A stretch of DNA of 64,000 bases, taken from Paramacrobiotus metropolitanus. Lineage: Eukaryota; Tardigrada; Eutardigrada; Parachela; Macrobiotidae. Under the pieces are notes generated by a model. The model was not told the DNA's origin and searched no databases. It saw only the letters and a list, made by a program, of their open reading frames with translations. Below are positions 14,085-53,000 of the stretch, in pieces. The translations under genes were made by a program, and so were the position numbers. The stretch covers positions 1 to 64,000 of the forward strand of contig NW_026570443.1 in NCBI RefSeq assembly GCF_019649055.1, given 5' to 3'. The first letter of the stretch is position 1; each line of letters starts with the position of its first letter.

Positions 14085-14169
14085 TGTTCAGGAAGAACGA
14101 AGAAACATCTTAGTGTAATTCGTCTCAGTAAGTTCTGAAAATTTATAAGAAGCCAATTCCGTTGAGGCA

Positions 14170-14370: not shown

Positions 14371-14994
14371 TTAATACACTGGTACAAAGTAACTGGGGAA
14401 GTAATTATTGTCCTCGACTCCACGTACACCGTTATGGATGTTCTTGAGTATAAGATGCCGGTTGAATTACGTAACCCGTAAAATCAGTACTGAGTTGGTA
14501 CTATTCTTAGGTAGCTCACATGCGATGCCTAAACAACTATACTACCTAAGAAAACGTACGCTGGAGTGCACTGGCGACCAGAGGGAAAAGCAAACGAAAT
14601 TTTCGTACATAATGTATCCTCTGTCAGTGTTTCATGTACTGTATCCTTTTGTGCTTAAACGGCAAACATGGATTGTCGTGTTCTAATTCGATTTCGGTTA
14701 CTGAAATCAGCTGTAAAATTACATCCGAGGGTCGTGTTTTCCCTCACGGACAAATTATACAACACCACCACGGATTTTCGGTGCCAATTTTTAAATTTAA
14801 AAAAGGCTCAACATGATGTTCAATAAGACGAGTCAGTATAACCATGAAAAGATTGATTTTTGGTACATCGGCAAAAGTTTTCAGAGAATTCATATGAGAT
14901 TAGAGATTCTCAATAGTCGATATTGATTCTTCTTCGAGTCGAGCGCCGGCAGAAATAACTCTTTTGCCGAAACATCGACCCTGAAATTAATTTC

Positions 14995-26140: not shown

Positions 26141-27354
26141 CATCGCATACCGCTCCATCGCGTTGTAGTTTCCATCGCGTTGTAGTTGTGTATCTCTGTG
26201 CTTTTGGTCACCTTCATTTGGCCACCTTCCGTTTGTCCGTTCAACCAATGCCTTGTCAATGACTGTAGTCAGCATAACCTGTCAAAAGGAAATTATAAAT
26301 ACGAGAGGATGTCAGCAGCGCATTTCAGCACTCCCTGTACTTGAGCTCGCTGGGGTATGACTTTGCGGCATTATATGTACAGAGTATATGGCTAAATACG
26401 CGTGGTACGTAAACACCTGGTACAGCCGCAACGTCATTCTCCAACCGGCTCACGGAAATCAAAATTTTGCTAACTATAGCTGGTTTATTTAGAAACCCGT
26501 TTTCCCAGCTATCACCGTAAAAAGGTCACACGGTCTGATTGCTAACCTGCGTTGCACGTGGTTCGTCCAGTGTTGAGTAAATTCCAGTGGAGAAGTGACA
26601 GCGCATAGTGACATTCTCCAGACTCAGCAAATTGACAAACCGCGCCAAACGATAGTAGCGCAAATCATCGGCGCACAGATGGACGTTCTGCAGTGTCACC
26701 ATACATCCGTTAGCGTTCTTCTTGCCACAATCGAGAGATTGGTGCAGAACATCGGTCATCTCGTATTGAATATCGGAGCACGTAAAAAGCCAGCACATGG
26801 GCAGATCTTGTGGTTCCTCTTGCATCAGTTCTTCCCAGCGGTAGCATTCCCAGCGTTCTTCGGGGACTTCGGTTCCCGGTGGCCGGCGAAAGATGACGTT
26901 GCGGGTTTTCTTGGTTAGGAAGCGCCGGATCAGTCGCTTATGCCATGCGCCCTCCGCTACAGCCCAGTCGAACCGCGCTTCATTATCGTCTGGGCCATGC
27001 TGTGGACGGGGTGTCAGCGACAAGGGCAAGTACGTTTCCCATTTGTTTCAGATCAACGATTACCGTCTTCAGAAGATATACGGCGCGGTAGATGGATTTC
27101 CATCGGCAACAAACGCTGCAACAGGATGATAATAAATACATGAGAGTGATACATGATTCGCACATTTTATTAACTATCAGGTCTGTCAAAACGAAACCAA
27201 GGGTTTCTGAGTACAGATTGTACAACCACTTAGACTGCGCAATTGGTGCGATCAATAATGTCCAGGAAGGAAAAGATGTGCAATACCGACTCCTCAGGTA
27301 AATCGTGAAAGGTGCATGGCAGACTGGCGCAGCTGGCTTCCAGTGATCTTTCAG
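26140..27354 (-). pseudogene. F-box paralogue 2, pseudogene
   Basis: Exon 1 (27230-27354) encodes MTERSLEAS then FHDLPEESVLHIFSFLDII. Exon 2 (about 26550-27117) has CCRWKSIYRAVYL, MVTLQNVHLCADDL and LENVTMRCHFSTGIYS. Exon 3 remnant near 26140-26280 starts VMLTTVIDKALVER. Damage: the exon 1 donor reads CTAAGT where paralogues have GTAGGT or GTAAGT; an extra A near 27047-27052 shifts the frame after DLK; exon 3 decays into a tandemly repeated ACTACAACGCGATGGA; no exon 4 is found. It is closest to paralogue 4. Confidence 0.85.
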
Positions 27355-29066: not shown

Positions 29067-32000
29067 TTAGTCTGTGTAGCACCCATCCAGCAGGTGCAGG
29101 GCCAACCGACTCAGCATGGTCACATCGAAATTGCGCAAGTCCATTCCATCCCACCACGCTACCGTGTGCTCGGGACTGAAAGCGCCGAACCTATCAACAA
29201 GTATCACTTTGAACGAGACGCATATCAGTAATTCCCCGGAACTCAGTCAACTCACATTTTAAAAAAGTGGCGAATGGGGCTCCACTCATCCGGATACACC
29301 AAGGTTTCCTTCCAGCGCGCATGCACGGCCGTCACCTTAGCGTGAACGCGCAGCGGAACGACCGGGCAGTGGTCATTGAGGGTGGATAATAAGCGTCGAC
29401 ACTGTTCCGCGGCGTTGTCCGTCGTGCGAAAGTGCAGATAAGGAATGCTCACGACCAAGGGAGACTGATCGAACCTGCCGTTATGCATCGTACCCAGCCA
29501 TGCGGCAGTGATATCGCGGAACAACCCTGCCAGTATCATCGGGGTGTTGGAGTTCAAATGGGACACGTTGTAATTAACCAACACTAGTTCGTTGCAGACT
29601 GCCCACAACTTCTGCAGCGTAGTGCACCGATAGCTGTTATCCTGATTACTGTTGCTTAGACCCAGAAACCCACTATTTGCCGTGCCATAATGATCAACAC
29701 TTTCCTTGACGACTAGGAAGTGCAGACGAATGCCCTTTCGTTCCAATACTTCACCCAAGACCAACAGCTTTAATGACACGGAGCGCGTATTCCCTCCATT
29801 ATCGAATAATGTCACCGTTCTGGTCTGTTGACCAATAGTACGATCCAGCATTGTCATGAATGTGTACTCGCATTTGTAGCTTTCAGTGTGAAATTCCCCG
29901 TTCTTGGGACTCCAAGCGTGCAGCGGACGGATATCGAGGACTATTTGACGATTACTGGCGTATTTCGGCGGAAGAAGCGCCCACAGCATGCAGACCCTGA
30001 TCGAGAAACAGGCCAATACACTCTCTCGCTGTGTGTAAGATGAGAATTCAGCTTAAAGGAACTGAAACGGTACATGGTACGAAATTAACTGGTTTTCATG
30101 AACAAAATCTTTTGATTTCGCTCACTCCCAAACAAATTTTCTTTTATGGCACTGCGTAGCCAAATGATGTGTACAATGGCGTGAGAATCATTTGTGCGTG
30201 CAATATCCGATTGGAACGTTATGAAAGAATTAAAATTCAAAAATGCGGTTCAAACGCACGGAGGCGAACCAAAAGTCACATTAGGTACTAACAGATCGTA
30301 AAATTTTGCTTAAAGACGTAAATTAATATGAACCGTGATTTGGTATAGTTTGGTTTTACATGGTTAAACCGTGGGTTGGTATAAAAATGATTTCCACGCC
30401 AATGTGCGTTTTCATGCAAAATTCGAAAGAGATCGGTCTATAATAAGACTTTTGGTGCACGGCACACCTAAATACAATTAAACTTACTAGAATTCTCTGA
30501 TAGCCGCAATTCCCCAACCGGATATTGCAAAACCGGTTGTCTTCATGGCCAGGCAAGCAGATCACTTGGCTACACATTGCCATAAGCCAATTCGAGAAAG
30601 TGGTTCTGAGGGTGAGTACGCAAAAGTTCTCGTGCATGCACACGAAGCCGGTGCCATGTAGGGTTGTCATTACGCATCGCACGCTATTGCAATGTGAGAC
30701 CGGGATCACTAGCGTTCACGTCAGTGGCGCTACGCCTGTGGCGCTACGCCTTAGGATTACGTGTCTGTGTTGTGTCTCTTCTGATTGGCTTGAGTTGTGT
30801 TAGTGGGCGCGGCATAGCACGTGCTGCACAGTGTTACACACTGTTGAATGGGCTCCACGCTTTACGATCGAGCTGCGCCGATCATTATTGATTTTCTGTT
30901 CTCCAGACTTTTCAATATTAAAAAGTCAGCGATTTACGGTGCGACGTTTGTGTTTCCGCATAGCTCGCGATCCATATCGTATCGCTCGCTTCCACGGGAT
31001 CTATTCCGTTTAGGTCTCCGTATCTGGATCACTGTTGGATCTACCATTAGATGGTAGCAGAGCCGACAGCGGTTCTCTGATTTGATTCGATTTGTGTCAG
31101 GCAAATTTGGCCTGTTATCTGACGTGTTATTTGTGACCAGTAAGGCACAGGTCTGTGTGACAGCAAAGCGCACACCACAAGCGGTGAAACTGCCTCATCG
31201 GACGTGGATCTCCAGCTTTGGTTTTCGGTACGGTATCTTCAGCGAAGAACCGTGCTGTTTCCTTAGCTGTGCAAGAGTTAAAGAGTTCAGTCGGCGGTGT
31301 TCCTCGGTGCGGAGTCTTCAGCGAAGACCTGCACTGGTGTCACCGTTACTCGGCAAGGCTTCAGCGAAGCCTAAGCCGTGGGCCACAAGCGGCGAAGCGC
31401 CAAAAGGGGCGCACGGGAAAAGACAGATCAGACTCCTCCAAACTGGAGTAGAGCGCCACTACTGTTGCTACGGCAGTCAGCCGGCACAGTAACCCACCAA
31501 AAGCGTGCGGCACAACCGTTACGGTAAAACCGGCGGCAGCGCGGGAACGGACAGTGGAAGAAGAATCTGGATCATCTGGATCGATTCTCGTGGAACGGAC
31601 GAGGAAACAGGTAGAAAACCCGTTATTAATTACGGGATTGGTTAGATGGTAAAATTCTCATTTTTCATTGGTCCGTACTGAGCTGAGCGTAGAAGTAGGC
31701 GGAGTTTTGCACACGGCGCGCATGTCTGGCCGTTGACCGTGACGTCAGGCAGATAAAAATTTTAAACGGATTAACGTGATTGGTCAGTTATCTGAGCCGT
31801 GATTGGTCGAAATTCGAACTGAATAATTTGAGCTAGCGGACCAATAGGAACGAAGTAAACAACGTAAATGGGTATTTTCCGTTGAACTCGAACTGTAATG
31901 GGAAATTCGATCTGAGATGAGATAATTGAGACGGAAAGTGACCTTTTGAGTTTAGACAAAGGAAAAGTGACCTTTGATCGAATTGAGCTTAAAAGTGACC

Positions 32001-35000
32001 TTTAGCTTGAATTGAACGGGAAAATAACCTTTTAACAGAAATTGAGCTGAAAAGTAACCTTTTGAGTTGAATTGAGCCGGAAAGTGACCTTTGAGACCAG
32101 GACAGGACTTTTGACTTCGAAAAGTGACCTTTACCGAAAAGTTGGAATTGACCGGATTGACCTATTTAAGTGACCTTTACGATTCGAAATTGACAAACGG
32201 TGACCCTTACTGAAGTGAAATTGAACTGAATAGTAGTACAGCGATATCAACAGCTGTAGGATTTCATTTCCTAATGTGTTTCGAACTGTAAAAGCTGTTT
32301 CGAAGTTTTGTCCGAAAGTGACCTTTTAGGGCAAATCTCTCGAACTTTTTATCGAAAAAGTGACCTTTACACGGGACTTAGTCGAAATTTTTCAGTCGAA
32401 AAGTGACCTTTAATAAGGACTTAGAAAAATTTCGGAGGTACAGAGTGACCTTTAGGATCATTGAATAAACCATACAATAACGTGTGTGTGAGAACAATTG
32501 GCAGGAGCGTCCAAGTTATCCGATCAACATGGACAAAGACCAAGAGGAACCGACATCCAACAGCAGTCAGGGAAGCAAAAGCTCCCGAAGCTCACAGCAA
32601 GGTGCACCAAATCCGTACAAAAAAGATTTGTACCCGTACTCACCTCCAGTTGGACATGATCGGAACACTCGAGCGCCCAAGGCATTCGAGAAGAAGGATT
32701 CACGAGGCTCTGATAGTACTTATCAGAAGGCGCTCGAGTCAGTCGCTAATCAGGAAAGCTCCAGCGACGACCAGAAGCACACTCCCGCGTCTACGGCGGG
32801 AGGCAAACCGATGAACCAGACAAAGGTCACAGGGGAGGATAAACCCACAGAAAGGGGAGCGGAACCAGTTGGAGCATCACAGCTTGATGCTACCATTAGT
32901 GGAACGAATGAGCAGGATAAAAATGTGAACCTGGCTCAAGTGGATGAGAGAAACACAAAGGTCACCGAAGAGGAACTGACTGAACTGGGATTGGATGACC
33001 TTTCACTGAATGATAAGACCGCAGGCGATGACCTTTGGTCAACTCCAATGGTCTCAGATGAATCGAATGAGTCTTACTTCACGGACGACGAAGCGACGAT
33101 GAATATGTCCTTCCAAACCGCGATGAAGGAGGCTGACCGTGCTGAAGGGATAACACCTTTCAAAGATATACCGGAGCACTTAATCGAACGGACACAAACA
33201 GGAAAGGTCATCAACGTACGACCACCGTCACCTAACAGTCCCACGTCAACTCTGAAGAGACGCGTGAAGGAGTTGGAAGAGGAACTCGAAGCCAAGGAAG
33301 GCCTGGTGACGAAGAGGAAACAGGAATATCAAAATCGGATAGGAACTCTGGATGCTCGTATCTATGAACTGGAGCAACAACAGGCCGACTTGGAAAGCGC
33401 AGCGGATGAATGGAAGATTAAATACGAGCGTCAAAAAGAACTCGCTGAAGAGTACCTGAAAATGGTAGATGACAGAGAAATGGAAGGTCATCTTGCGGTT
33501 AGCGAGTTGAACGAGAGTATGTCAGAAGAATCAGCTGAAAGGTCACGGCACTTAGCCGAATTAAAGGACGAGTGTGACCAGTTGCGTCAAAAGGTCACTG
33601 AAGCTGAAACTAAACGGGACGAATACGCGACCAAATTCGCAGAGGTCACACAACGGTTAACGACATTGGCAACGGAGACGTTCAAACTAAGGAATGACCT
33701 GAAGCTACGGGAGGAGGCTGTCAGTACTCTGCAACTAGAATCGAAAGGTCATCAGGAACGGGCGGACGAAGCTGAGAAGTTGCGCAATGATGCAATCAAA
33801 GCGATGCGAGAGGCAAGAGACATCACAGCTACTGAAGGAGAACGCCTGAAAGAAGAAATCAAAAAGGTCAACCAGGAGAATGAAAAGGTCACAGAAGACA
33901 TTGAAAAGGTCACTAAAGAAGGACTCAAATGGCAGAAGGAAGCACGGCGACTGGACACAATGGTCACAACATTGGAGCTGAAGGACAAAGAGTGGCAACA
34001 ACAGGTCGCTCAAAAGAGTCAGGAGATTGCAAAGCTGAACACTGACCTCGTCGAGATGACCACCACAGCATTGGCAAAAGATGATGAGTTGATCGCAATC
34101 AAGGATCAGCTGAGATCAGCCGCTGGGCAGTATCAGCAACTCGAAAACGAATCGAGTGAGGTGGTCGAGCACATCAAAAAGATGGAACGGGAAAATGAAA
34201 AGGTCACCCAGCAGGAGTCTTTTAAACTGCAGGAACACTTACGAAAGGTCAACCTGGAAAATTCTGATCTAAAGAGAGAAAGAGAAGAACTTCAACTGAG
34301 AACTAAACGATTGGAAGATGAGAACAAGGCGCTCCAGACGTCTAACAAGCACAAAGATGAACAACTCCTACAATATGGAGTTAAAACGGCAACAGTGGAG
34401 TCCCCTCCGCCCAGTTACAGCAAGGCGCATGAAACGGGCACGGGTAAAAGCTTCCACTTCGACATGCCGCTACGAACTGGTACTGGCAGAGGAAGTGTCA
34501 AAACGGAAAGGACGGGGAAAAGGCCAAAGATGACAAAGAGCCACCATCAGAAAGTTACCCGCATATGAGTCGAGGTGACCCTTCACAATTTCCCCCGCAC
34601 ATGGAAACAAATGTGTTCATTGATGAAGGACGACGGGACAGACCCCCCAGCCGGCAGGAGCGTCCAAGGAAATCCCGTTATGGAAAAGCGAAACGAAATC
34701 AAAGTGATGATGGAAGTAGCGAAGAAGACGATGACCAGAGAGCAGAAAATACAGCAATGCAACTGACAAAAGCACTCAACTCGATGGCCAGGAAAACACC
34801 ACTCATGACCTTTGACGGCAGTCGTGACACAGTGAGTGGGTGGACACGATTGGTGAAAGAAACCCAAAGGACTTATCAGTTGACGGACGACCAAATCATG
34901 ATTGAGATAGCCAGTGCAGTGAAAGGTCCTGCAAAAACATGGTTTGAAGGAGAAAAGGACATCGCAGCAGAAGATGGAATCGAATACTCAATAACAGAGT

Positions 35001-38000
35001 GGATGGACAAATTCAAAGACGAATACGGTGATCGAGATGAAGAAGTCTTAGGCTTACGTGAGGCCTATGCAAGGAAATTTGAACTCGGGAAAGAATCGCT
35101 TGACCAGTACTACCAGGCGATGATGCGCTTCAAGGCAAAAAGAATCATCACTGAGAAGCAAGCAGTCGGCTTCCTAATTGAAGGATGCAGAGGGGATAAC
35201 GAACTCTACAAGGCATTGCGTATACAGAAGTGCAAGACGCCAACGGATGTGAAGGACTTCTTCCGACATTGGGCAACGGGCGAAGAAAAATACAAGGCAC
35301 CAAAAGGTCAACGTAATCAGGAATACGTGACCATCCGCCAAGGCCAAGTTGAAAACGTGCCGCAACAGAGAATGGCAGCTGCGCCAGTCCAGCAGCCGGT
35401 TGAGTACCGCGTGGAGACTCCGGTCAGAGAGGTCACCGAAAAGGTGACCTTTATCGACAGTCAGACGGGACAACCGATAACATATGCGATGGTGGCGGCG
35501 ATACAGGCAGCAGCTCAAGTGAAACCAGTAGCCCAGAATGTGGCTCCCCAGAATGTAGCCCCACCCGCACCACAGAATATGGTCCCTATGAATGTCGTGT
35601 TACCACAACAAGGAGGGGGTAACGGAAACTTTGGCGGAAATGGATACGGAAATGGAAATTGGAATGGAGGTCAGGGGAACTTCCAGAATCAGGGACAAGG
35701 TCAAGGTCAAGGGAACTTCAGAGGGAATCAACAGCAAAACCAAGGGTCACGAACTGAGTTTAAGTTCCAGATGATTGACGGATGGGTGGCGAACAACGTT
35801 CAGATGTGCCAGTACTGTATGTACGGCAATCATCAGACACAGGGGTGCAAATTCGCTAACACACCACCAGAACAGAACCCGAACCTGTTTGCCTTTAACG
35901 AGTGGCAACGATTGCGCGGGCTTGGTGGTTGGCGCCAAGCGGTCGCAAATGGATATGACCTGATAACGCAATGGTATCAGGCGAAAGCAAACTTTCAGAA
36001 CCAGCAAGGCAACGGAAACTACGGAAATGGAAATGGCGGTGGCCAGAATGGCGGCTACGGCCGTGGTGGCTTCGGCCGCGGCGGCTTCAGAGGAAGGAAC
36101 AGAGGCTATGGCCGCGGAAATTTCAGAGGAGGCCAGAACAATGGAGGCGGCCAAGGCAACTACCAACATGGTGGTGGCCAGTATAACAATGGCAACGGAC
36201 AGAATCTTAACCCGGCAAACGATAACGGACAACAACAAGGAAATGTGCAAGGAAACGTGCAAGGCGTACAACAAGGTGGGGCGCCGGTTCAGGGAAACGG
36301 GCAAGATCAGTAGGCACCGGTGAGCTTACTGATCGACCCGACCCTAAACCACCGGATAAAAGGGAAAGGTCACCACTGCAGAATAGTACTGCAGTGAATG
36401 TGACCACTGCAACGGCTATATGGATGCCGTCAGCGAAAAAGCAAAGTGGACCGGCTATATGGATGCCGCAACCACAAGAAACGGCTAGATGGATGCCGCC
36501 ACAGCAAAGAGAAACGGCTATATGGATGCCGTCATCGCAAAGAGGAAATGGAACGGTTATAGGTATACCGTCACAAAGTGAAAGGTCACCGCAGAATGGC
36601 ACTGCGAGTGGAAACATCCAAGTGGATAAAAGGTCACCGCAGAATGGTACTGCGAGTGGAAATTGTCGTGACGGTAACGCGACACTGCAAAAAGTGCAGC
36701 AAAATCAAAGGTCACCGTACTGCAGCGAAGAAGTGTTAGCGCTACGACGCGCACAACGAAATGCAAAGATTCAACAGGCGCTCCTGAATCAGAAGAAACC
36801 GCAGAACGACACTGCGCAAGAGGAAAATGAACAGCACGCAAAATCCCGAAAAATTTTGGCAGAAAACGACAAGGCGAATGAGCCAAGGTGCGATTGTTAC
36901 GGGGAACCAAAGCCAAAGTTTTGGAATTGTTCAGAAGACGAAGAAGAGAAGCGAATAAGGCAAGAATGGATTAAGCAGAATATCACCGTCATTAGTAAAG
37001 ATGAAAGGTCACCTTCTGTTGGAAAAGTCCAAGTTAAAGGTCAAGGAGCGAGTGCGAATGCAAAAGGTCGCGGCGACAGCGTCGTGTTAAAAGGTCAAGA
37101 AACAGACTTGACACTGCGAACAGCGCAGCAAAAGAATGGCGAATTGGCACAACAGAACTCCGATGACTCACTTGTAGATGCAATAACGCTGCAACGGAAG
37201 GAAATCTGGCAAAAAGTGGCCTACAGACCGAATGGCAATCACGGGATGTGGATACCTGTGACACCGAAAGCAAAGCAGAAAGCAAGAATGTCACAAGAGG
37301 ACTACTGGGACATGCAACAGTTGCGAACGCAATGTGAAAGAAAGCGACTGGAAGAGTTGGTTACCGGGAAACCAGCGCAAGGGTCATCGAACCCAGTCCC
37401 AGTATTCAATCCAGAGGAATATAAGAAGACATTCGCTGACTGGAATCATTCACGTAATGCTCCACCACAGGATAAACCGCCAAATTATGGAGAAAAAGTC
37501 CCCATACAAAAGCTGACAGGCGGCGGATTTGTCATGAAGCGCAACGAAAGGTCACAGGACTTAGCGCAAAATGAACAGAAAGAATGGTCAAACGAGATGG
37601 CGCAAATGCAACAGAGTGGCGCAGTTGAAAGGTCACGGGACTTATCGGAGGCACTGCAAAAGGATGCCAATGACAAGTCACCAGCCCGAACAGACGGAAT
37701 GTCTTCACAAATTGATCAAACGAAAACGAATAATGAAGTGTCCGCGAAGGTGATCGAATGGATGACCGAAAAGGGATATGACATGGTTACATACGAAAGG
37801 TCACCAGATGAGACGAAAGATAGTGAAGAAGACGAATTGAAGCGAGCGGACCAAATAACAAGTGAAGTCATTGAGAAGCTGAGAGATAAACGAAATGAAA
37901 ATCGCAAAGAGGAACTGATCCATCAGACGATAAATGAAGTGACTAAAGGTCACATGGATAGCACAAAAGCAAATGAGCAAGTGCAGAATGTGGAAAAGGT

Positions 38001-41000
38001 CATCGGTGATAAAAAGGCTACAGAGAAGCGAACAAACAAAGAAAAACCGCGAAAATATTACGATGTTCGGACTAACGTTCCACATAGGATTGATAAGCTG
38101 AGCGAGATACTGAAAGGTCATAGCACTCCAGCAAAAGGACAAGTGCCTTCCGATATGGATCCGGGACCAGTATCGCTTATCCCTGTGAAATGTAAGATTC
38201 TCACCTTGAAGATTCAAAATGGAAAGTTACCCAAAAGAATTGAAGCGTACACACACGAAGTGAAAGTGGGAGACATAAAGGTCAACGCAATGTTGGACAC
38301 CGGCGCTGAGACGTCGCTAATCAGCAAACCGTTTTGCGAGAAGAATGGACTTCATATGCTCCCATTGCCACCCGACAGATTAGTGAAGATTAACGGAATT
38401 AGCGGAACGTCAGGATTCCTGGTGACGCACTACTGCATAGCACCAGTGACCTTAAGGAAAAAGACTAGCGAACATTCATTCTACGTCCGACCGAAGTGCG
38501 ACGACGTACAAGTGTTACTGGGATTTGACTTCTTGGAAAAGAAATTCGTACTGATGGACAATGAAGGTGAAGAAGAAAAAGAAGATGACCCAAAACCAGT
38601 TGCCAAAGTACAAGTCGGAAAGGTCACCGAACTCGCAAAACAGGAAAATGCTCAAACTGCTAATAAAACGCTAATCCCAGTACCAGAGGCACCGGGAAAC
38701 GAAAAGAAAAAGGTGACGCGAAAAGAATTGTCACCATTTGAGCAGTTGCGAACGATTCAGCAGGAGATCGAAAACACGTTAAACCGGACAATGCTGACAC
38801 AAAAGGGAAGAGAAAAGGTCATCCCAGTACCAGAGGCACCGGGAATGACGAGAGTGCAACAGAATGAGATTAGTCAACGGATAATCCCGGTACCAGAGGC
38901 ACCGGAGAAGAAAAGTGAAAGTGGAAAGGTCAGAGAAGTTAACGAAAAGAAAAAGGAACCGCTTGCGCCAGATACCGATGAGGCGATCATATTTCTCCCG
39001 GACGGGAGAAGTATGATCGCAGATGACCGTAAGCAAGGAGACACAGAAAAAGAAGGTGTTGAAAAAGCTATCCCAGTACCAGAGGCACTGGAAATAAAGA
39101 CGGCTAAAGTGGGGAAGGATAAAAAGAGTGAAAGGTTACGGGTTTTGAAGCGAATAACTGAAGAGGAACAAATGTTTACAAGTGAAATCCGCGACAGGGC
39201 ACTCGAACAGTTGAAAGGTCACCGAAAAAACAAAGAACCAGAGGTCATCGTAATACCCTCTGAGGATAAAAGCGTGACTCCAATCGAATGTGAGGAAGAT
39301 ACCACAGTACACGAAAAGGTTAAATCTCAAGCGTGTCAAAGGACATTAACTCCAGAAGAACGAGCCGGGAGTTGTCACCACGGTTACTTTGAGGATCCGT
39401 GCAGAGTGCAACCACAATGGGAATGCACGGAATGTTGTGAAAATGCCTCCCAAGATGACCTTTCAGAATGGCCAAGATGTAATGCCGCATTAGCAGACCT
39501 TAAAGGTCATGCCCAAAAGGAAGTGAAAAGCATCATGCGGACAAACGAAATGTGGAAACCAAACATCGAACGATATCATTGGAATAGATATCGAACGTGG
39601 TTGTCATGCGTGGAAAGTTTTATAATTGGAAGAGGCAGATGGCTAAACCATTGGGTGCAACGTGTGGAGAAAGGAATCCAAGATCCTCTCGATCCGGTAG
39701 CAACAGAAAGGAGATTTGAACGAGAGATAGAAGAGATGACCGAAGAAGGAGAAATGTGGGAAGAAGCGAGAGTTGACCTTTTCTGGGACTTCCGTGTGAA
39801 CCACATGTATAAAGGCAAAGGGAGAACGATCATCTTCCCGGCAGGACTTGGTACCCCTGTCTACGAATCACTCGAAGTATATTACAACGCGTTAAAAGAG
39901 GGGAACGAAAACATATTCCAAAAATACTGGAATAAATTCGAAGAAGAGATCCCCAGATTCGACGTAAAAGAGATGCGAGAACTACAGGTAACCCGGAAAA
40001 GAAGGCTACCGGGATTAATGCAAAAGAAAAAGGTGACCTTTGCACCAGATCCAGACGGAGTGGATTACCCAGAACGAGGTGGCGACACGTGGTGCATGTA
40101 TGAAACGATTCCAAATGACGAATGGGTTACCGAAGAACTGATGGCAAACTGCATCTTTGTTGGTCCTAAACGACCTAAAGGTTACGAAACAGTCCAACAG
40201 GATGAAGTTGAAAAAGGGACCGTAAAAGAAGCGGAAAAAGAGGAACCAGTTGAACAGATAGTTGAAGGAGGATCGAATGAAACGGAAGAAAGTTCAAAGT
40301 CGGCATTCGACATTGCACAGATGTTAACGGACAGAGGTGAAATGTGGAAAAGGTTCAAAGAGGAAGTTGAAAGGATATCGAACGAACAACAAAATCCAGT
40401 AACTGAGGCAAAAAACGGGGAAAGGTCACTCGCCAACGGTGAGGAATGTCCGCCGGTCGAGTTGTCCGAAAAGCCACTGTCGAGTATAGAAGAAATAAAC
40501 GAATTGGAAAAGTTAAAATCGAACGAAGAAAGGCCAAACTCCGATCAGTCAGAAAGGTCACCAACGAGAATTCGAGTAGCGAGGAGTCACCCGAGAGTCG
40601 CTGCACGAAATGGGCGAAAGGCAAAAGAAGGGGACAAACCCCTGCTCAAAAATTCGAAAGTGAAAAAACTTAGCGATTCACGGGAAAACGAAAGTGACCT
40701 TTCATCAGAAGATGAAGGAGTTGATGAGCGTCCACTCGAAAAGGCTGACAAAGGTCAAGCCACTGCACAAGAATATGAGAGCAGTAACTCCGACTCCGAG
40801 TGGACGAGTTCAAGTGATAATTCAACGACTTCGGAAGATTCAGGTGTAAGTGACCTTTCGGAGCAAGAGGATTTAATGGACTTGGATGAGGATGACGAAG
40901 TAGATGAAGAAAAAGAAAAGGATATTAAAGTCAGAAGATTGAAAGTGGAAAAGGCTAGGATGTCGAAAGACGTGATCAAAGTCTACAGTGACCAAAGAAT

Positions 41001-44000
41001 CAAATTGAAACCGTCCAATTGCACACGCGTAAAGGTCAAGATGGGAAAATACGCACCTGCCCAAAACAAGTTGATGTTTACACCGGTCCCACAAGTGGAA
41101 ACGGAAGTGCAACCATTGGCAGGAGTAACGGACCACAGAGGAAAGTACTTCGAAATCGTCATTGCGAATCACAGCAGCAAATACCGGATTGTGAAGAAAA
41201 ATCAGCTTCTTGGCTACGTTGAGCCGTATGAACATATGGAAAATGTAAAGGTCAACGCAGGGACAGTAAAGAACGTACTCGAAGACCCTGAGGTGGATGA
41301 TACAACGAAAGCTGAATTGAAAAAGATAATCGAAAACCTGAAATTGGGACCTGACCTTACCCAGGAACAGAAAAACGAGGTGTATAACGCGTTTTGGGAA
41401 TTCTGGAAAGTCTTACCGACATCCAAGAAACCGTATGGAGATGTGAAAGGGGTCACTCACGTAATCGATACGGGAGACGCGAAACCAGTTAAATGTAACC
41501 CGGCCAGAACGAGTTGGACAGGCCGTGAGTTTATAACGAAGCATATCGAAGAAATGTTGGCACAAGATGTAATTGAGCCGTCAGACGCCGAGTGGAGTTT
41601 CCCAGTCGTGCTGGCAGTAAAGAAAAACGGTGATGGAACAATGGGAACAAGATTTTGTGTCAATTACATCATGCTTAACAAGCTAACGAGAAAGAATAAC
41701 TACCCGTTACCGAACCCAGATGAACTGCTTGACGCGTGTGCAGGCAACAAATATTACGGAAAAATGGATTTACAAAGTGGATTCTGGCAGATCCCAATGG
41801 ACCCAGCGTCAATCAATAAGACGACCTTTGTAACACAAGATGGAATGTACCGGTTTAAAAGAATGCCATTTGGAGTTTGAAACGGACCAGCAACATTTCA
41901 ATTGTGTATGGATAAAGTTCTCTCGAAAGCGAAAAGAAAGGGTTGCGTTTTCGGGTACATTGACGACGTAATCTTCGCCGGAAAGACTTGGGCGATCTTC
42001 ATGCAGAATCTGCGAAATGTCTTAATGAGTCTGGTTGAAGCGGGATTCACGATTAAACCAACCAAGTGTGAATTTGGAATGAGACAAATGGGATTTCTGG
42101 GTCATATACTCAGCGAGGACGGAATTCGTATGGACCCGGAAAAGGTCACCGCGGTCTCCGAATTCAAACGGCCTCAGACTGAAAGACAATTAAGGTCATT
42201 CCTTGGACTGGCGAACTATTATCGTAAATTCATAATGGGATACGCACAGAAGACTTCCCACTTATATGAACTGCTGAGACAAGATAAGCACGTGAAAAAG
42301 GACTGGACGGCAGTACATGAAGAAGAGTTCAATAGTTTGAAGAAGTTGTTGTGTGAAGGTCCAGTACTGGCAAAGTTTGAACCCGCGAAACCGACCGTCA
42401 TTGAATGCGACGCGAGCAAAGAAGGAATCGGAGCCGTACTGTCACAAGATGGACATCCGATCGCGTACGCCAGTCGTGTCTTACATGGAGCGGAGAAAAA
42501 TTACGGTGTAACGGAATGGGAATGTCTGGCAGTTGTGTTCGCTGTCAGGAAATTCAAGCCGTACATTGATTACGCAGAGTTCACCGTAAGGACGGATCAT
42601 CAGGCGCTGACCAATCTGCTAAGGTCAGAGACGAACAAAGTTGGAATGAACCCGCGTTTGACAAGATGGGCAATGGCACTACAAGGTCACCAGTTTAAAA
42701 TTGAATATAAACCGGGGAAATATTGCGACAACGCGGACGCGTTATCAAGAGCGCCAATCGAAGGCTCGACGTGTCAAGAAGAGGAATTCGATGAGATTCC
42801 AAACTTCGAGGATTACAAGAAGGAGTTTGATACGAAGGAACCGGCAATTGAAGTTGGACAGCTGTTCCTGCAGATGGTGGAACAGAGGGAGAAACGATTA
42901 AAGGTCACTTCAGCTACGGCGAATGAGTCGGCTGAAATAGAAGCTAATGTGAATCGTGTAAAAAGTTGGTTGCCCACCGTTAGTGACTTAAAGGTCACCG
43001 GACTTGAAGTAGAGGCCGAAGTTCATAATGGAAAGGTCACTGGACTTGATAAAGCAGCGGAGAAAGGAGATGACCTTTGGGAAACGGACAAAGTTACACA
43101 AGCGTTGAACGAGTGTCCAATTAAGTTGCTGAGATTCCCAAAACAGACGAAAAAGAGGTACAAACCGCTACCGCGATGCAAGGTCATCAGAGATTGGAAC
43201 GAACTCAGTACAGCAACAGTGCGCATCGTTAACCTGCAAGGTGACGAAGAAGAGGAGGATGACTCCAATCTACAATTGCGAAACAAACAATTGAAGGATC
43301 CTCATCTGGCAATGATTATAGATGAATTGGAACATCTACCAGACGCGGAAACAAGATCGAAATTCGAAGTGCATTACCAGTTGTGGAACGGCATATTGTA
43401 CCGAGTAAAAGATAAAAATGGAAAACTTGAAAGGTCATATGTCGTACCGTTGTCAATGCGAAGAGCGATAATCCACGCATTGCATGATGAGAAAGCAGCA
43501 GGCCATTTGGGATTTGAAAAGACATTATCAGCGATCAGACTCCGATATTATTGGGATCGAATGAGTACTGACGTAAAGAATTACATACTCGCTTGTCAAG
43601 GATGTCAATTTCGCAAAACACCGAGGAAATGCCCACCCGGTAAATTGCAAGAGATTAAAGTGGGACACCCGTTCTTCCGAGTGTACGCTGATCTGAAAGG
43701 ACCATTGCTACCAACGAAGAAACGCGGATATAAATACATAGCAGTGTTCATCGATCAGCTGACGAAATATGTGATAGCGGTACCAATGAAGACGGCAACT
43801 GCCAAAGAATTCGCTAAAGTGTTCGTGAAGCACGTGATATTAGTACACGGAGCACCGCACATCCTACATACGGACCGCGGACGACACTTTACAGCTGAAG
43901 TACTGACAAAGGTCACCAATGTGTTTAAGATTAAACACACATTTGGAACGGCATATCATCCGGAAGGTCAAGGCCAAGTTGAAAGACAGATGCAGACGAT

Positions 44001-47000
44001 TGCGGATGGCCTGGCGCAGTACCTGAAAGCGGGAAACGAAAGAAAGTTTAACAAGTACCTCCCATATGTTATTTCGGCGATGAACAGAGTCGTACACGCC
44101 ACAACCGGATATTCGGCATATTATATGCTACACGGCAGAGAAATGACAATGCCGGAAGACGTGGTCACAAAAACGAATATCCCAGACGACTATGGGACTC
44201 CCGATGAATGGGTAGAGACCATGAAAAAGAACTTGACCTTTGCAGAAGAAGTGGCGAGATGTAACATTAAAGATGCTTATGAGAAAAATGCGGAAATTTA
44301 CAATAAGAAGAAATCAGAACCGAACTTCAAAGTGGGAGATTTCGTATTGATACGATTACCAAAAGACACGAAACAAGGGAAGAAAGAAAACCAATCGGAC
44401 TTTAAGTCCAAATACGACAAAGTGTGGAAGATTCTCAGTTTCCCGCGACCAAACGAAGCCGAAGTCATTGAGCAGAACCCGAAGAAGGAAGCAGACTTGA
44501 AGGTGGTTTCGATCGACCGGTTGAAACCATGGCACCCTCCATTACCAGATGAGGAAAAGGCAACAGAGCGTACTCAAAAAGATTCGGAAAAACCTTTTTT
44601 CGAACCACCTCTGCTACCCGAAACGGATAAAGCTAACGGAAAAGAAGACGAATCAGAGCGGAGTCCGAAAAATGACTCAGTCACACAACAGAAGCCATTT
44701 TTCGAACCACCTCTGCTACCCGAAATGGGAGAAGGTCAAACGAATGGGTTAAACGGAGATAAACCGAAACAGAAGCGAGGAAGGAAAAGGAAAGAGGACA
44801 AAGACTTTGAAACTGCAGTCACAATTAAGTTGAACGCAGAAGCTGGTAATTTGGCAAAAAGGTCACTGGAAAAAGATACCGAAACGAGCTCCAAAGTACC
44901 AGAGCGTTCCTCCAAAAAGGACTTGCAACAATCCTTTTTCGAACCACGCACTGCTACCGCAGATAAAGATGACCTTTTGAAACAGCGAACGGACGCTGAG
45001 ATATCAGAGCGTGACCCAAATTTTTTCGAACCACGCACTGCTACCGGCGATGAGAATGACCTCATACAAAAGAGAAAAGAGGAAATAGAGGCGGTCAAAT
45101 CAAAAGCTGAACAATTGGGCCGTGATATAGCGAAAGCAATTAACGAGCGGAAGGTTAAACAGAAGAAGAAGAAACCAACTCCTACGGACTTATTGACCCA
45201 GAAAGGCGAACCTGAGGACGCAGCCGAGAAAGAACTCCTTGATCGGATAACTAAAGGACGAGAGAACAAATAACCACATAGACATAAATAAGGGGTCACA
45301 CTTAATTAAAAATAGGAGTTGGGAAGGCAAAAAGAAAGGTCACCACTGTGCAAAAAGCTAACCTTTATTGTTTCGTTTTATAGAAGGTAAGCACAGTTAA
45401 TGGACAGATTGGAACGACAAAACTCGGATAATTCAGACTCTGAATGTATCGGAAACCCACTAAAAGCATCAACACCTATAAGAATGGAAGGTGAATACGG
45501 TTATGACACCTCATATGGTGAAGGATCAACGTCGTCAGTGGGAACGGCTCAGAATGAACCTGGAACAAGTCAAGGAGGTTACTATGGCGGCCAGGGATAT
45601 TACGTGTATCACGATCCAGGACAGCAGACGAGTTATCAGGACACGGTTAACTGGGTGCACCACGGCTCACCTGCCGGAACCCAGTATTCGGGACAAGCAA
45701 CGGTCGCCCCTTATCAACCGTATCCAGGATCGTATACCCCACCGATGGGACCACCACAAGTAATGATGGGACCGGCAAGAATGTTGATGCCGCCACCGCA
45801 ACAGACCACACCGAGTCGATTTATGGGACATGGTGGATTCAGCGGAACTCCACCACGATCACAAAGGTCATCTCCGATATTACCGCCTTTTCCGGAGACG
45901 GGAGGCTTGTCACTGTCGGATATCGGAGCGCCTCGTATGAGAACACCGCAGCAACTTGGAGCGCAGCGCCCTCATCGTAATTCGCCACACAGAGGAGGAA
46001 GGCGACCGAGAGGCATTCTACCGTCACTGGGTCCAAACTTGGACGAGACTGGACCAGATGGTTTACGGCTTACGCCTCCAGGTGAACCTTCAATACACGC
46101 ATACGCACCGAAGCTTCCTTTGGATTTGAGAGAAGACGACGCAAGCTTAAATATGATTCCGAATAAGGAGGACAAACTGACGGAAAACGACTTGGAAGCT
46201 ATCCGAGAATTTAATCGGAAATGCCGCGAACTTTATAGAATTCACATGCGAGTTGAAGACGAACACGCATGGTACGGAAAGTTAATCAGCCTGGAAGCCG
46301 TTATTAAACCATGTCATATCGCCCTGAAGGAAAAGACAAAACTGATCGAAAAAGAGCGCAGTGAATACGCGATAAAAGTTGCGTCGATGTGGCAATACCA
46401 CCCGTCGCTAAATGGTAGGCCATGGCCTTCGATCGTCGAAAAGATCCTTAGGTATCTTAAAGTGTTCCCGGAAACAAGACAGATGCATCCTACCAGCGTC
46501 ACGGGACCATCTAAACCCAGAGCTGAAAAAGATGCCCCGGTTGATGAAATGACGGACGAGGACCTTTTGGCCACAAAGCAGAGGATTGATGCCGTATTAA
46601 CGGAACGAGCAGAAAGGTCACGGGCCAGCTCGGTTGCAGGATCAGGACGTGGACGTACTAGTTCGGTCACAGAACCATCCAGTGGCACCACGAAGAGTGG
46701 AAAAAGAGTGAGATCACCGACGACAAGCCCAAAAGAAACTGACAAGAAAGGGCAGCGAACAAAGAAGCCCACAGAAAGCAAAGCAACACCAGCTGAGCCG
46801 GCAAAGCCACAGGCCCCGATTCCAGTGGGTAGAAAGAGTGTACCACCCACGCCGAAAGGAACAGAAGGTCAGATTCGATTCCCGAAGTGTAGAAGTTTCA
46901 CCGGCCAAATACACTGGGGAAGACCATAAAGAACGAAAGGTCACTGCACGAATAGTCGATAAGAAAACGAACAAAGAGATCGACTCGTATAATCCCCTCG

Positions 47001-50000
47001 CGGATAGGTCAGTTAAGGATGCCATTGGGAAAGAGTCAAAAACGGTAGTCAATGAGGCGCTACAGTTTATTCCCCCAGAAGAACGTCATAACCCAAGAGT
47101 TATCGTTCAGATGATGAAACACGTGGTATCTAAAGTTGCAACCGAAGAAGATGCATGGATCCGTATCAAAGTGGGCACAGATGATGACCACTTGGCATAT
47201 ACATACACAACGGACGGCAAACTGTTGATCAAAGAGAGAACTCGCTCAAAACCAACGGCGGATCCAGATCCGAAGAAACGATCGTCAGATGATTATGAGT
47301 CGGTCCTGAGATACACAGAGGCGACAAGCAGAAAGGTCACCCTCAGACTTTTCGCTGACAATGGAGAAGCTACGGAAACCATAACTGCGGTGATAGTTGA
47401 CCCAATAACAGGAGACCCGGTCCCATATGCCCCATGGGATGTATCAGAAGAGAGCGCCCGAAATGCGAATCAGGCAGCTATTGACCAGCTATGGGATCTG
47501 ATACCTGAAAGCGACCGAAAAGATGCCGTGGTTCAAGCAAGCACACTCATCAGCATGATGCGGCATCGAGCGGAGATCGATGGAGCACATTTCCGACTCA
47601 CAAGACGAATGGAAGATGGAACGTACAAAACGGTATTTTACGACGCTAAGAAGAACCCTTTGTGGGAGGTCGCCTCACAGGGATCTCCGAAAGAGACAAG
47701 ACACTTGGAAATTCATCCCCCGGCACAAGAAGGCGGAGCCGGAGAGACGGAAGAGGCGCAGGGCACGTCGGCAAATGTAACTGAAACAGGAGGGGCCAGA
47801 CGTTCGCTACAAAGAGTACTTGAGATTGCCCAAGGAAGTCACGAGCACCTTCAGTGTGATGAACCAAACTGTGCCCATTGTAATCCACCTGGTGACGACG
47901 AACCAGAGTCGGAAGACGAGGACCCACCTGAGGAAGAAGGCTCAGACGAAGAAACGACCGACAAGCATAAAAAGCCCTTAAAAGTCAAGTCCTCAAAAGT
48001 CAAACCGAGAAAAGCGCCCAGATTGGAAGAGGCCATGAACCGTGACAAGGTTAAGAAAGGCGATTTTCTCAAGAAACGACGGGAGGAAGAAGATAAGAAG
48101 AAACGACAGGAGGAAGAAGATAAGAAGAAGAAGAGCGGTGACGAAAGCGATAGCACAAGCACCGGGAAGAAGAAAAGAGATGAACCAGCGTCTCACGATG
48201 TTGAGATATTGGACGAGTCAGTCGGCGAAGTTGAGGAAAGGTCATCGACACCTACGACTTCAAAGAAAGTTATTAATTCGGCTACGTCAGAACCGTTAAA
48301 GCCCAAAGGAAAGGTCATAGCGGTGAAACAAGTTGTCCCCATTGTCATTTCCGCATCCACGCCAAAGGAGCGCAAGGACAAACAGATTCGTGAAAAAGCG
48401 AAACGGGAGACGTCGCGTGAATCGGAGGCATCGGAAGTGAGCCTTCCAAGCACTTCGACGGTCAGTGCAAGGTCACATACAGATTCGAAAACGACACGAT
48501 CAAGGACCACTGAGCCAAGAAGCTTAGCGGAAGCTCTGGATAAAGGGAAAAAAGCAAAGAGCGAACCCGTTAAGACCAAAGGAAAGGGCAAGACAGTCAC
48601 GAAAATCGATGCATTAGCGACGGTTAATTACACTGAACCAGATGGAGAGAGTGAACTGGACTTCACCTCGGATGAAGAATTTGATGGTCCAGATGATGAT
48701 AATTTGAACACGGTCGATGAAATAATCAAAGCGTATAACGGAGCTGAGAAGAATTTCACACGAATAAGAACAGCATCGGTGACATCCAAATTTAAAGCAG
48801 GCCTGAAGACATATTTGAAGAAACAACATCGTAGCTTCACCAAACAAAAGTTCGACGTCGTATTGGAATTCGCGCGGAACGCAGGAAAACTTATACAGAA
48901 GCACCCGAGTTTTTCGTATGAGGCCAAGTTGTTCAGACCAGCCAGTTCGGATAAAGCGCTGACAACTCCGAATGAAGCGGTCCCAATGCGAGTAGAAAGG
49001 GCAATCGCGGGAATGACAAGCCCATTAGGGTCAACGAGTCACCGGATTAGCCAATACATCAACGCAGTTTGGAACGATGGGAACGGGATGATCAAGGAGA
49101 TCGACACGGCAACCGAACGTGTACTGCCAAAGTTGATTAAACAGAATGTCCTTGCCACAACAAACGCAAATAAAGGACATCCTATCCGATACACGAGAGT
49201 TGGTTTGATACCACCGGAAAGACAGATCCACTGTCATATGTCTGACAGTCAGGATACGGAAAAGGTCACAGCCCCATTGAGCGGAGACCCGTCAACTCCG
49301 ATATTGGATCAGATCGCACAGAAAACGGCCGAAGAAGATGCGGCGAGGTTGAAATCACAAGCCCCGAAAGTGCCGAGGAAAAAAGGACCAATGGACTCGG
49401 AATCGGGAAGTGATGACGATACTACAATAACGGCTCCTTCTGGACCTGCGACAGAAAAAGACGAACAGTCGAAAGGTCCGAAGACATCTGGAACTACCGC
49501 AGAAGTTCAACCGAAAGGTCATGAGGCTTCAGACAAACGGGAGAAAGAAAAGGTCATGCTCCCGATGGATAAGGCAGCGGCAGAAGCTGAAGCGGATTCG
49601 GCGCGACAGGTGTTTCACAAATCACTGTTCATACCATTAAAGGAGGTCTTTGAGAAGGAACGATCGAAGTCGGTTGGCGATCTAAAAGGTCAAGAGACTT
49701 TGCCGCAAGAGGAGAAGAAGACAGCCGAACCAAAATCAGCGGGGTCATCATCAGGATCATTGGCAAAGCTGAGGATCGACGAAACAGCGACAGCTGACCC
49801 AACGGATTCGACATCCTCCCAGAAAAGTAGCGATACACCGGCAAAGGAGGCTACAGATTACACGTTAGGGCCGGCATTGGACGTGAATAATCGTACATGG
49901 AACGAAGTCCAAAATACGCTCCAGATGGTCAGGGAAAAGAAATGCTTGGCAGACCTGAAGAGACAAGTGGCTGAAAACTCGAAGGGGAGGTCGTCACTTA

Positions 50001-53000
50001 ACATGACTGAACGAGTTCTGAAACGAGCATATAAGGAAGGGAAGTTGGGATGTAAATACAACAAGGACAACAAAGTCATTTACTACCTTCCGAAACAGGG
50101 CCGAGCGTACGCCCAGACTTCCAATGGTATTAGAGGCCTGGAAGATAGCCATCACAGACGTGGCTTTGGACGCCATCGGAGGTACCAATGGAGCGTCATG
50201 GAATGACCTTTCAACTTCATGGCCGTCAATTATGAATTGGGAGAATTGAATATTGAGAAAGATAAGGAGTGGATTAAGAATGCCGTTGAAGCTTTGATTG
50301 CGGACGAAGTGTTCATATCAACAGCGATGGCCGGATAGATTTTCAACCGTTACCACCACCGAGAAAGAAGCAGAATGAATGTCGACAGTGTAATATGCAG
50401 CGAGTAATGAACCCTGCATATTACAGAAAAGCATAAAATAGTTCAAAACGAAAGAGAAAAGTGTTATGAAAGGTCACCTGAAAGCAGTACTAGGACTAAT
50501 AGAAAAGGTCACAGTAGTCAGAGAGTGCTGATAACGTGAGAAAGGTCACCACGTTACAGTGATAGAAAAGCCAGCAGGAGCTAGGAAAGTCTCAGCTCAG
50601 TAACGGATAGGCGTAAAAATGATAGAAAGCCTTGATAACGGATAGGAATGGAAAGGATTAACGTGGAAAGGTTACTATGATGGATTATTTTATAATTGCA
50701 GATTGAAGAAAAAAGATGGCACAAAAAGGTCAAACCCCTTCTAAACGTACAGGAATGGTGGCAGATATCGATCAGTTTACGGGCTATAATCCAAAGTGTC
50801 CGGACTGCTTAAGGAACAACAAAAAGGTTGATAAGAAATTCCCTTGCTACACTTGTATTCACAAGCTGGAAGACCCACATACCGTCACGCTTGTTGGGAT
50901 CATGGAAGCCAAACGTGGGAATTTGGACGTTTTTCGAAATCTCATAAGCGCAAGAAATTACGGCAGCATCCCAGTAGAAGAGCGAATGCTATTCGAAGAT
51001 CGTTATCGAGAAGCGATCCGGAACAATGAACCTGGTTGGGATGACACCTTGGAGCCGTTGAAATGTCCACAAACAGACGCATACCGGAAGAAATTCGAAG
51101 AAGACCAAGCGAAGATGCGTGCTCAGCAGATGGAAGACGAAATCCGCGCGAAAATTTATGCGGAAAATAAGAGAGCAAGTGAACAGGCTGCACGAGAGGG
51201 GTTGCCCATTACGTCGTCGAGTTCAACCAGACCCACAGCCAGCCTTAAGGAAGACGAAATGCAACTTGTACGACAGTCGCTCATCATACAAATCGAAACG
51301 TTAACGAAAGATCCAGCTGCTATGTCAGACGAGGTATTCAAAATGCTGTTGCGGGAGAAGAAACGACTTCAAGACGGGTTCGCGCCGGCACCCTACATAA
51401 AGAAGGAAGTCGAAAGACGTATGGATGACCTACGTAAATCTCGCCGAACCGAAAGCGATGTGCTGCAGGCATTCAGAAATTTTAAACGGGACGAAGGCTT
51501 TATACGACCACGTTCGCCCCCGCATAGAGAAAGGTCACGCGGACATTCACGAGAATATGAGCGAACTTCTGAACGACAGAGGGAAAGGTCACGCGAACAC
51601 TCTCGTGAAAGGACACGTGACTACCGCAACGAAAGGTCACGCGAACGCTCTCATGACAGAGATTACCGTGGCGGAAGAGGATGGGTGCGCCATGGAGACG
51701 AAGTTACAGAAATGAGTATTCAAAGGAAAATCGATACGGCAAAGATTTTGGCGGCGACGAGAGGACGTGAAGAAAAACGGCGTGCGGAGACGTTCCGTAC
51801 AGAACCCGAGAAGCAAGGACATCAGGTGCCGATGGGAGTTGCATTCCGGAATCGCAATGTGAGGATGTCAACACCCGAAAGGTCATGGGATAAGAGACGT
51901 GAACATACGCGAAATCGAACGCCTGACCCACAGGATAAGAGATGGCAACAGAGAGCCGCATTTTATGCGACCTTCGACTCGGGCGCAAGTAAAGGTCATC
52001 AAGCACTGAACGGGAAGATTCACCCCCAAAGTATCAGCGGGGGGAGTCAGTGGTTCACGTTGTGGATCCAATTGTGAGCGTCATACAAGAAGACGATGCG
52101 ATGGAAGGGACCAGCTCGATTGCGGAAACGTCTCAAGAGAACGTGACCCATCGACGAAATGTAATTCTGGATAGTGACCTTCAACCGGAACAACCGGCGA
52201 GTAACGAACCGTCGCAGCCTGAGTCAGGAGAACAACGTGAACTGGAAGGTCAACGAGAACCGGATAATCATCGCCAGGCTGATCAGCGACAGAACTCCAG
52301 ATTTGACAACCGACGTCCTGAAAGTATTGATATGGAATACAACACGACTGATATCGATGAGCAAACGGTCGAAATTTGTCGATACTTTGGTATTGAATCG
52401 GATTCGGTCGAAGCTAACAAAATTGGCACAATTCTGAGACAGCTGAGCCAATTCTTACTTGACTCGGGATACGCGAGAGAGATTAAACAAGGAGTCGAAC
52501 AAGGACTTTTCCGTCGGTTATTCATCCACCGCGATTCACATTGTGTTATTCACATTGTGTTAAATTGTGCCTTATGGAATTGATGTGATAAAACGGATTA
52601 AGAGATTTGATGTTTTTGAGCACACACAGACACCAGCACCGGCGACCGTCGTCTTCTCGTGGATTCGGGAGTGTGTCCAGCCTCACAGGAGCTCGGCATC
52701 CCCCCAGAGGCATGTGAGACCGGGATCACTAGCGTTCACGTCAGTGGCGCTACGCCTGTGGCGCTACGCCTTAGGATTACGTGTCTGTGTTGTGTCTCTT
52801 CTGATTGGCTTGAGTTGTGTTAGTGGGCGCGGCATAGCACGTGCTGCACAGTGTTACACACTGTTGAATGGGCTCCACGCTTTACGATCGAGCTGCGCCG
52901 ATCATTATTGATTTTCTGTTCTCCAGACTTTTCAATATTAAAAAGTCAGCGATTTACGGTGCGACGTTTGTGTTTCCGCATAGCTCGCGATCCATATCGT

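Follow-up and report, generated by a model that had tools for sequence, protein, structure and literature searches.

The window analysed here comprises the first 64,000 nucleotides of contig NW_026570443.1 from the tardigrade Paramacrobiotus metropolitanus. It contains a complete Ty3/gypsy-type long terminal repeat (LTR) retroelement of 22.4 kb, termed element A (30692-53063), in which the hexamer AGGTCA is strongly enriched in both orientations and irrespective of reading frame. In B, C and D, which are related to A, the hexamer is conserved. Other related elements in this genome, namely the families E, Y and X and element F, are largely devoid of AGGTCA and carry other words instead, which is a new finding. 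The hexamer may represent a double-stranded-DNA address under selection, read by a lineage-specific protein that is most likely encoded by the element itself and acts on its own family; we give this reading about an even chance.

Distribution of AGGTCA in element A

Element A carries 80 copies of AGGTCA and 32 of TGACCT, together 112 sites within 31052-52712, compared with 11.2 expected under a first-order Markov model. This bears out the estimate of a preliminary description of this DNA, which had put about 100 hexamers against an expected 10-11. AGGTCA is the commonest strand-collapsed hexamer of the element and occurs about once per 200 letters, genes included, with AAAGGTCA[C/T] as the consensus across all sites. 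The remaining 41.6 kb of the window contain only 16 sites. Host DNA is at background: the window flanks (32.4 kb), for which few hexamers had indeed been reported, show 0.43 per kb, and ten stretches of 10 kb each from other contigs show 0.30 per kb. In the host genome searched (169.8 Mb, 533 contigs), AAAGGTCAC is counted 19,414 times versus 3,461 times for the reversed control. An expectation-maximisation motif search seeded with enriched hexamers returns AAAGGTCA for A, C and D. For F it gives AGGTCG, while for E, and for A in an initial run, it was drawn to a purine-rich coding bias.

The open reading frames (ORFs) of A contain 96 of the 112 sites, and the remaining 16 are non-coding; the leader and every counted ORF carry sites. 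When codons are shuffled such that every protein sequence and its set of codons are preserved, the ORFs hold a mean of 18.4 sites and a maximum of 31 in 500 rounds. Sense sites occur in all three frames (23, 31 and 22 in frames 0, 1 and 2), and antisense sites in two frames only (0, 5 and 15), frame 0 being empty because the word would read TGA, a stop codon. The earlier claim of sites in all three frames plus reversed copies is thus confirmed. A coding coincidence, in which the protein repeats KVT, KGH and ERSP happen to yield the word, could draw on the excess of KVT (20 versus 2.3 in shuffled proteins) and KGH (8 versus 0.6). It is refuted by the codon-preserving shuffle, by the three sense and two antisense frames and by the non-coding leader sites, and we regard it as virtually discounted.

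The sense orientation of 76 of the 96 coding copies would suit an RNA-level signal on the transcript, serving packaging, export or splicing control. Codons alone, however, predict the same bias (14.8 versus 3.6 expected). The fold enrichment over the codon-preserving expectation is similar in sense and antisense orientation, with 5.5x and 6.1x in A, 5.9x and 6.2x in B, and 4.1x and 4.3x in D; in C it is 5.7x and 3.7x, the lower antisense figure resting on 11 sites. Furthermore, the leader array of A is wholly antisense, opposite to most coding copies. An RNA signal had been among three readings offered earlier; the strand symmetry disfavours it, and we rate it as highly improbable.

The two LTRs (30692-31043 and 52712-53063, forward strand) are identical and free of AGGTCA. 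This absence had been noted before, for LTRs of 359 bp, a length that has to be corrected to 352 bp. By itself the absence is not significant, with about 1.8 sites expected per LTR at 5 per kb. The LTR and the following 857 bp of leader, jointly 1.2 kb, contain no site, with a Poisson P of about 0.002. The leader of 1.4 kb also holds the highest motif density of the element, 18.9 per kb over 31901-32483, just upstream of ORF1. The non-coding array located there (31939-32451, reverse strand) consists of 11 TGACCT in a single orientation, partly within tandem units of 30 and 43 bp; tandem units lie at 31962-32092 and 32340-32424. Neither even spacing nor helical phasing is seen in A, as the coefficient of variation of the gaps is 1.02 and a 10-11 bp period was not found.

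Conservation in relatives and words of sister families

The relatives B, C and D, all located on contig C1 and read piecewise, are 91, 82 and 74.5% identical to A. All comparisons are made within one genome, in which B, C, D and E were read at length, and two X, two Y and three further F copies as short pieces. Under the codon-preserving null (200 shuffles each), AGGTCA is counted 84 times versus 16.0 in A, 91 versus 15.5 in B, 70 versus 13.3 in C and 69 versus 16.6 in D, with z values of 14.6-20.7. Among six word classes tested in A to D, none besides AGGTCA exceeds z 3.3. The aligned AGGTCA sites of A are kept in 100 of 112 cases in B, 75 of 99 in C and 17 of 25 in D, compared with 60, 32 and 15% for all hexamers. 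By this measure the word ranks second of 182 hexamers in B, second of 132 in C and second in D, where only three have enough counts; the hexamer ranked above it is an overlapping word each time. By codon alignment it is kept in 85/94, 63/90 and 32/64 cases in B, C and D (background 59, 29 and 9%), ranking 2/121, 1/100 and 3/30, respectively.

Four-fold degenerate sites within motifs are identical to A in 83/86 cases in B, 65/71 in C and 35/42 in D (97, 92 and 83%). At most 15 nt from a motif, the corresponding figures are 297/354, 189/298 and 58/132 (84, 63 and 44%), and elsewhere 1525/1934, 947/1572 and 244/675. The preliminary description had proposed a check for motif loss at the neutral rate; in B, C and D, the motif positions stand far above their neighbours. 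Together with the codon shuffle, this upholds its view of a frame-independent constraint on nucleotides. In E, where 18/36 four-fold sites in motifs, 77/192 near them and 429/1042 elsewhere match A, there is little or no such protection.

These figures also bear on a passive origin, in which biased mutation, gene conversion or short tandem duplication would spread a functionless word. Tandem units in the leader, a few repeated coding units and a preference of inter-site distances for multiples of 3 (224, 101 and 103 in the three classes, from seven pieces of A to D) speak for it, and part of the AGGTCA set may descend from in-frame duplications. Most coding sites of A fall outside tandem arrays. 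The protection of motif four-fold positions relative to near neighbours is not expected of a functionless word, and a mutational process should hit host flanks, LTRs and E equally. We therefore consider a passive origin quite improbable.

A pol tree of nine copies (834 columns, unrooted) places A, B, C and D in one clade with a support of 0.997, followed by X, and then by E and Y. RT (reverse transcriptase) and integrase are absent from the sequence of F as read. An earlier placement of D as an outgroup, based on gag and ORF1 identities, is replaced by this tree. The motif class agrees with the tree among the nine copies, which indicates that word and element lineage change together.

Element E (C1, about 96-120 kb) is 74.4% identical to A and thus as close as D. 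It keeps 6 of 49 AGGTCA sites of A (6/78 by codon alignment), compared with the 17 of 25 in D. The LTRs of E still share 98% identity across 354 bp or more, so the loss of AGGTCA predates the insertion of E; decay in a dead copy is rejected for the same reason. Instead, E carries AGATCA at 2.6 and AGATCG at 2.4 per kb. Under the codon-preserving null, AGATC[AG] is counted 71 times versus 34.9 in E (z 7.2), 33 versus 13.2 in Y (z 6.3) and 30 versus 17.6 in X (z 3.2), whereas AGGTCA reaches 12 versus 7.5 in E and 7 versus 5.0 in X. At the motif sites of A, the third base in E is A in 23/48 cases and G in 22/48; for other xGGTxx words, a change to A is seen in 42/227 cases (Fisher P 5e-5 against 23/48). 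The AGATC[AG] sites of E are kept in the Y copies, with 15/16 in L034 and 11/13 in L036 when A/G exchange is allowed, compared with 57 and 53% for all hexamers. They are less kept in the X copies, with 5/10 and 6/10 versus a background of 39 and 35%. The Y copies are composed of the pieces L034/L043 and L036/L044, and the X copies of L035/L041 and L037/L042. AGATGA was rejected as part of the E word, since, although enriched, it does not regularly exceed the background in conservation (8/13, 3/5, 5/10 and 2/9 versus 57, 39, 53 and 35%). Genome-wide, GAGATCRTC is found 2,367 times versus 920 for the reversed control.

The family split is clearer in the leaders than in the ORFs. Leader counts, summed over both strands upstream of the first ORF, are free of codon constraint. 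AGGTCA occurs there 11 times in A (1440 bp), 8 times in D, 3 times in E, 1 and 2 times in the Y copies and 1 and 3 times in the X copies. For AGATC[AG] the counts are 2 in A, 2 in D, 18 in E, 22 and 20 in Y and 12 and 12 in X, and for AGCTC[AG] they are 4, 2, 3, 4 and 3, and 9 and 13, in the same order. The leader words point one way in 11/11 cases in A and 7/8 in D, mostly one way in X, and are mixed in E and Y.

Element F (positions 1-9000 of the window, reverse strand, right end approximate) is a related element truncated by the contig start, with A[AG]GTCG in its ORFs and upstream of the first one. The words counted are AGGTCG and AAGTCG. The 1308 bp upstream of the first ORF contain 7 AGGTCG, 2 AAGTCG and 1 AGGTCA. 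AGGTCG occurs at 4.1-5.2 per kb in this copy and three further ones, compared with 0.13-0.19 in host DNA. Under the codon-preserving null, A[AG]GTCG is counted 45 times versus 20.0 in the window copy (z 7.6) and 90 versus 41.8 in the further copies (z 10.4), while AGGTCA is found 1 versus 2.9 and 3 versus 5.7 times. Among the F copies, AGTCGG is kept in 16/21, 17/21 and 16/21 cases.

The main rival explanation is recruitment of a host transcription factor, in which A would have gathered NR4A sites (NBRE) for cell-specific expression and the sister families would use other host factors. The consensus AAAGGTCA[C/T] is the NBRE, which is bound as monomer or homodimer (PMC7901948). Monomer binding would suit the irregular spacing and free orientation, and the host genome contains 63 zf-C4 stretches, matches to the nuclear-receptor domain. 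As the sister families carry other words, several host factors would nevertheless be needed, and neither E nor F carries a word known to us as a nuclear-receptor half-site. It would also be unusual for promoter recruitment that 19 kb of coding DNA are covered while the LTR and the first part of the leader hold no sites. For the nuclear-receptor reading made earlier, the letters fit exactly, and the other words of the sister elements stay unexplained. We judge this explanation possible, if rather doubtful.

Alternatively, the word could serve the element DNA in another way. An element protein such as Gag or integrase might coat or condense the 22-kb cDNA, retain it in the nucleus, or direct new insertions to older copies. 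The near whole-length spread over both strands would be in line with this, and Gag and integrase are common to A to E. No motif lies within 30 bases on either side of the insertion site of A, however, the word is missing from the LTR and the first leader, and binding of Gag or integrase to it is putative. Such a role in DNA handling seems unlikely.

Proposed address, candidate readers and parts of element A

The reading preferred here, an address on double-stranded DNA, would have the word cover most of the interior of A, coding and non-coding alike, and be maintained by selection. Since both strands are similarly enriched, the frame is free and the spacing is irregular, the reader would bind double-stranded DNA as a monomer or loose unit. 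Its sequence preference would differ between element lineages. If one host factor served all families, a common word would be expected, and yet the words differ among families that share one genome; the readers should thus differ by family and would most simply be element-encoded. The data show the enrichment, its independence of frame and orientation, the conservation and the family-specific words, while a protein reader, its origin in the element and the consequences of its binding are what we infer. Of the readings offered earlier, the family comparison brings a zinc-finger-like array with a dedicated protein closest. Binding may keep chromatin accessible or counter host silencing over 22 kb. 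The silencing opponent may be other than DNA methylation: the C5-methyltransferase domain PF00145 was not found in a six-frame search of the host genome at E 0.001, with 10/14 controls positive, all of them prokaryotic, so that in this intron-bearing animal its absence is unproven. Piwi-family matches amount to 57 stretches.

In a wider form, giant animal LTR retroelements might bear a near whole-length self-address overprinted on their genes in each frame that can be used, and an element-encoded reader might switch the word between families, with dozens of sites rewritten jointly and the proteins kept. This would be self-recognition by sequence as with the VANC proteins of plant VANDAL transposons, but across coding DNA and in an animal. 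We place this proposal somewhat short of even chances. If true, self-recognition by family would reach beyond the DNA transposons of plants into the retroelements of animals, and a DNA-level code rewritable between families would span about 19 kb of coding sequence. It would further offer a system for watching a DNA-binding protein and about 100 of its sites coevolve within a single genome. How large elements remain active in an animal whose genome yielded no DNA C5-methyltransferase domain could then also be tested.

Several observations weigh against an element-encoded, family-specific address. Tables of k-mers were inspected before the words for E, X, Y and F were chosen, so that their z values are partly post hoc. 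At the 49 sites of A, E reads AGATC[AG] in 15 cases, AGGTC[AG] in 7 and neither in 27, so much of its word set lies at new places. Y retains some AGGTCA (11 versus 3.3, z 4.6), AGTTC[AG] is also enriched in E, Y and X (z 4.5, 5.8 and 4.4), as is AGATGA (z 4.6, 2.2 and 3.4), and AGCTC[AG] is not significant in the ORFs of X (14 versus 10.0). In F, AGGTCG is kept among copies in modest excess only (20/24, 16/24 and 14/24 versus 59, 56 and 56%; 15/23 and 13/23 versus 50% in further comparisons), and the further F copies are also enriched in AGCTC[AG] (z 4.1). The preference for distances in multiples of 3 belongs here as well. Concerning the reader, a candidate at best, the ORFs that follow pol in A are all without Pfam match at E 0.1, and two single-sequence fold predictions (mean pLDDT 36 and 47) were too poor for a fold search.

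One candidate DNA-reading protein is encoded by the accessory C4 ORF (50716-52077, forward strand; 453 aa, 7 motif sites), which has an N-terminal CX2CX12CX2C (C4) motif and an RS-rich stretch. Relatives of this ORF are found in B to E, and also close downstream of the X and Y1 pol copies. It is fast evolving, the protein of A sharing 65% with C, about 50% with X, 46% with Y1 and 45% with E. The finger does not track the word, as that of C, an AGGTCA element, is partly E-like, and the ORF stays a mere candidate. A segment of the 36394 ORF (aa ~1205-1260), alike in A and D and different in E, was rejected as the reader, being A-like in X despite the other word there, which is a further point against the element-encoded address. 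No DNA-binding domain was found above the Pfam cut-off in the non-pol ORFs of A.

Element A is assigned to the Ty3/gypsy type by its identical LTRs and the Pfam order of protease, RT, RNase H and integrase. A clear target-site duplication is not seen, the two sides sharing at most the three bases GCA. Directly inside the 5' LTR, the putative primer-binding site TGGTAGCAGAGC (31052-31063, forward strand) was read directly from the sequence; the same word occurs in the leader of E, and we take it to resemble tRNA-Met primer-binding sites. The leader is followed by ORF1, a gag-like ORF, pol and four more ORFs, all on the forward strand. ORF1 (32484-34568) encodes a coiled-coil-like protein of 694 aa with weak Pfam matches and holds 17 motif sites. 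The gag-like ORF (34565-36313; 582 aa, 8 sites) has no Pfam match and, by eye, one CCHC zinc knuckle, CX2CX4HX4C. The open pol frame of A stops within RT, and other copies have longer open frames. Pol 1 (36394-41880; 31 sites) comprises an aspartic protease (aa 622-715) and the start of RT (aa 1744-1827), and pol 2 (41902-45273; 17 sites) the remainder of RT, RNase H and integrase. Within pol 1, the segment at aa ~1205-1260 (KKKVTFAPD...) shows strong conservation among A to D and one X copy and is altered in E and, to a lesser degree, in one Y copy, while the linker around it is otherwise fast-evolving.

Two accessory ORFs without Pfam match follow pol, at 45400-46929 (509 aa, 3 sites) and 46838-50206 (1122 aa, 11 sites). 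Significant counterparts of both were not found in the fetched pieces of D (L009, L016 and L017); as D keeps AGGTCA, these two ORFs may be dispensable for the word. Beyond the C4 ORF, the last ORF (52050-52583; 177 aa, 2 sites) also has no Pfam match. On the sense strand of the ORFs (32484-52583), the splice-donor-like words AGGTAA (1 versus 7.5 expected from the codon-preserving shuffle) and AAGTAA (2 versus 10.3) are depleted, as if the transcript avoided splicing.

Elsewhere in the window, a tandem array of three similar ORFs is located at 9848-16202 on the reverse strand, and the two that were scanned match 7tm_1, the rhodopsin-like receptors. Four reverse-strand ORFs that are alike by eye flank A on both sides (23979-24587, 26526-27029, 57870-58541 and 61123-61932). 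Three flank ORFs were scanned, two of them giving a sub-threshold NPR3 match and one none. A 79-bp tandem repeat at 20356-20761 comprises five copies with 92% matches. Outside the window, at L012:5774-6075, five AGGTCA/TGACCT are clustered near a weak LTR match (7025-7198, 67%); this cluster is possibly a leader remnant.

Comparison with known systems

In the gypsy element of Drosophila, an insulator array of Su(Hw) sites forms a single confined cluster in the leader and is read by a host zinc-finger protein. Element A is similar in being an LTR retroelement with a cluster of the protein-site type between LTR and gag. It differs in its more than 100 sites over the interior, beyond the leader, and in the different words of its sister families. 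Bacterial DNA uptake sequences (USS/DUS) are short words found on both strands and in all frames, spread by selection or drive, and serve DNA uptake by cells. The word of A is likewise short and scattered over both strands and frames; we know of no USS/DUS equivalent for a retroelement. Whole-element arrays of NR4A/NBRE sites are also not known to us. The 8-mer AAAGGTCA itself is identical to the NBRE (PMC7901948). Unlike NBRE sites, which belong to gene promoters, the word is departed from in the sister families. Among the titles and beginnings of abstracts covered, with few subscription journals, no account of such retroelement words was found in the literature on retrotransposon motifs, anti-silencing, VANDAL, tardigrade LTR elements or Paramacrobiotus transposable elements.

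In Arabidopsis, the VANDAL21 and VANDAL6 elements bear words specific to each family, most of them in tandem repeats of non-coding DNA, and VANC anti-silencing proteins bind these words (PMC5735166, PMC10398659). VANDAL elements are DNA transposons of a plant, whereas A is an animal LTR retroelement. Their words are mainly non-coding and arise by tandem repeats, whereas 96 of the 112 sites of A lie in ORFs, even though the leader is densest. VANC is a known reader that acts on DNA methylation, whereas the reader of A is a candidate only, in a host in which no C5-methyltransferase domain was found by a search with no animal positive control. The likenesses are that a word is enriched in one family and rare outside it, that related families differ in their words, that non-coding DNA contains same-orientation arrays, here in some of the families, and that the words appear to undergo rapid joint change. 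Element A is not classed as a member of the VANDAL/VANC system, which it resembles in both the specificity and the turnover of its word.

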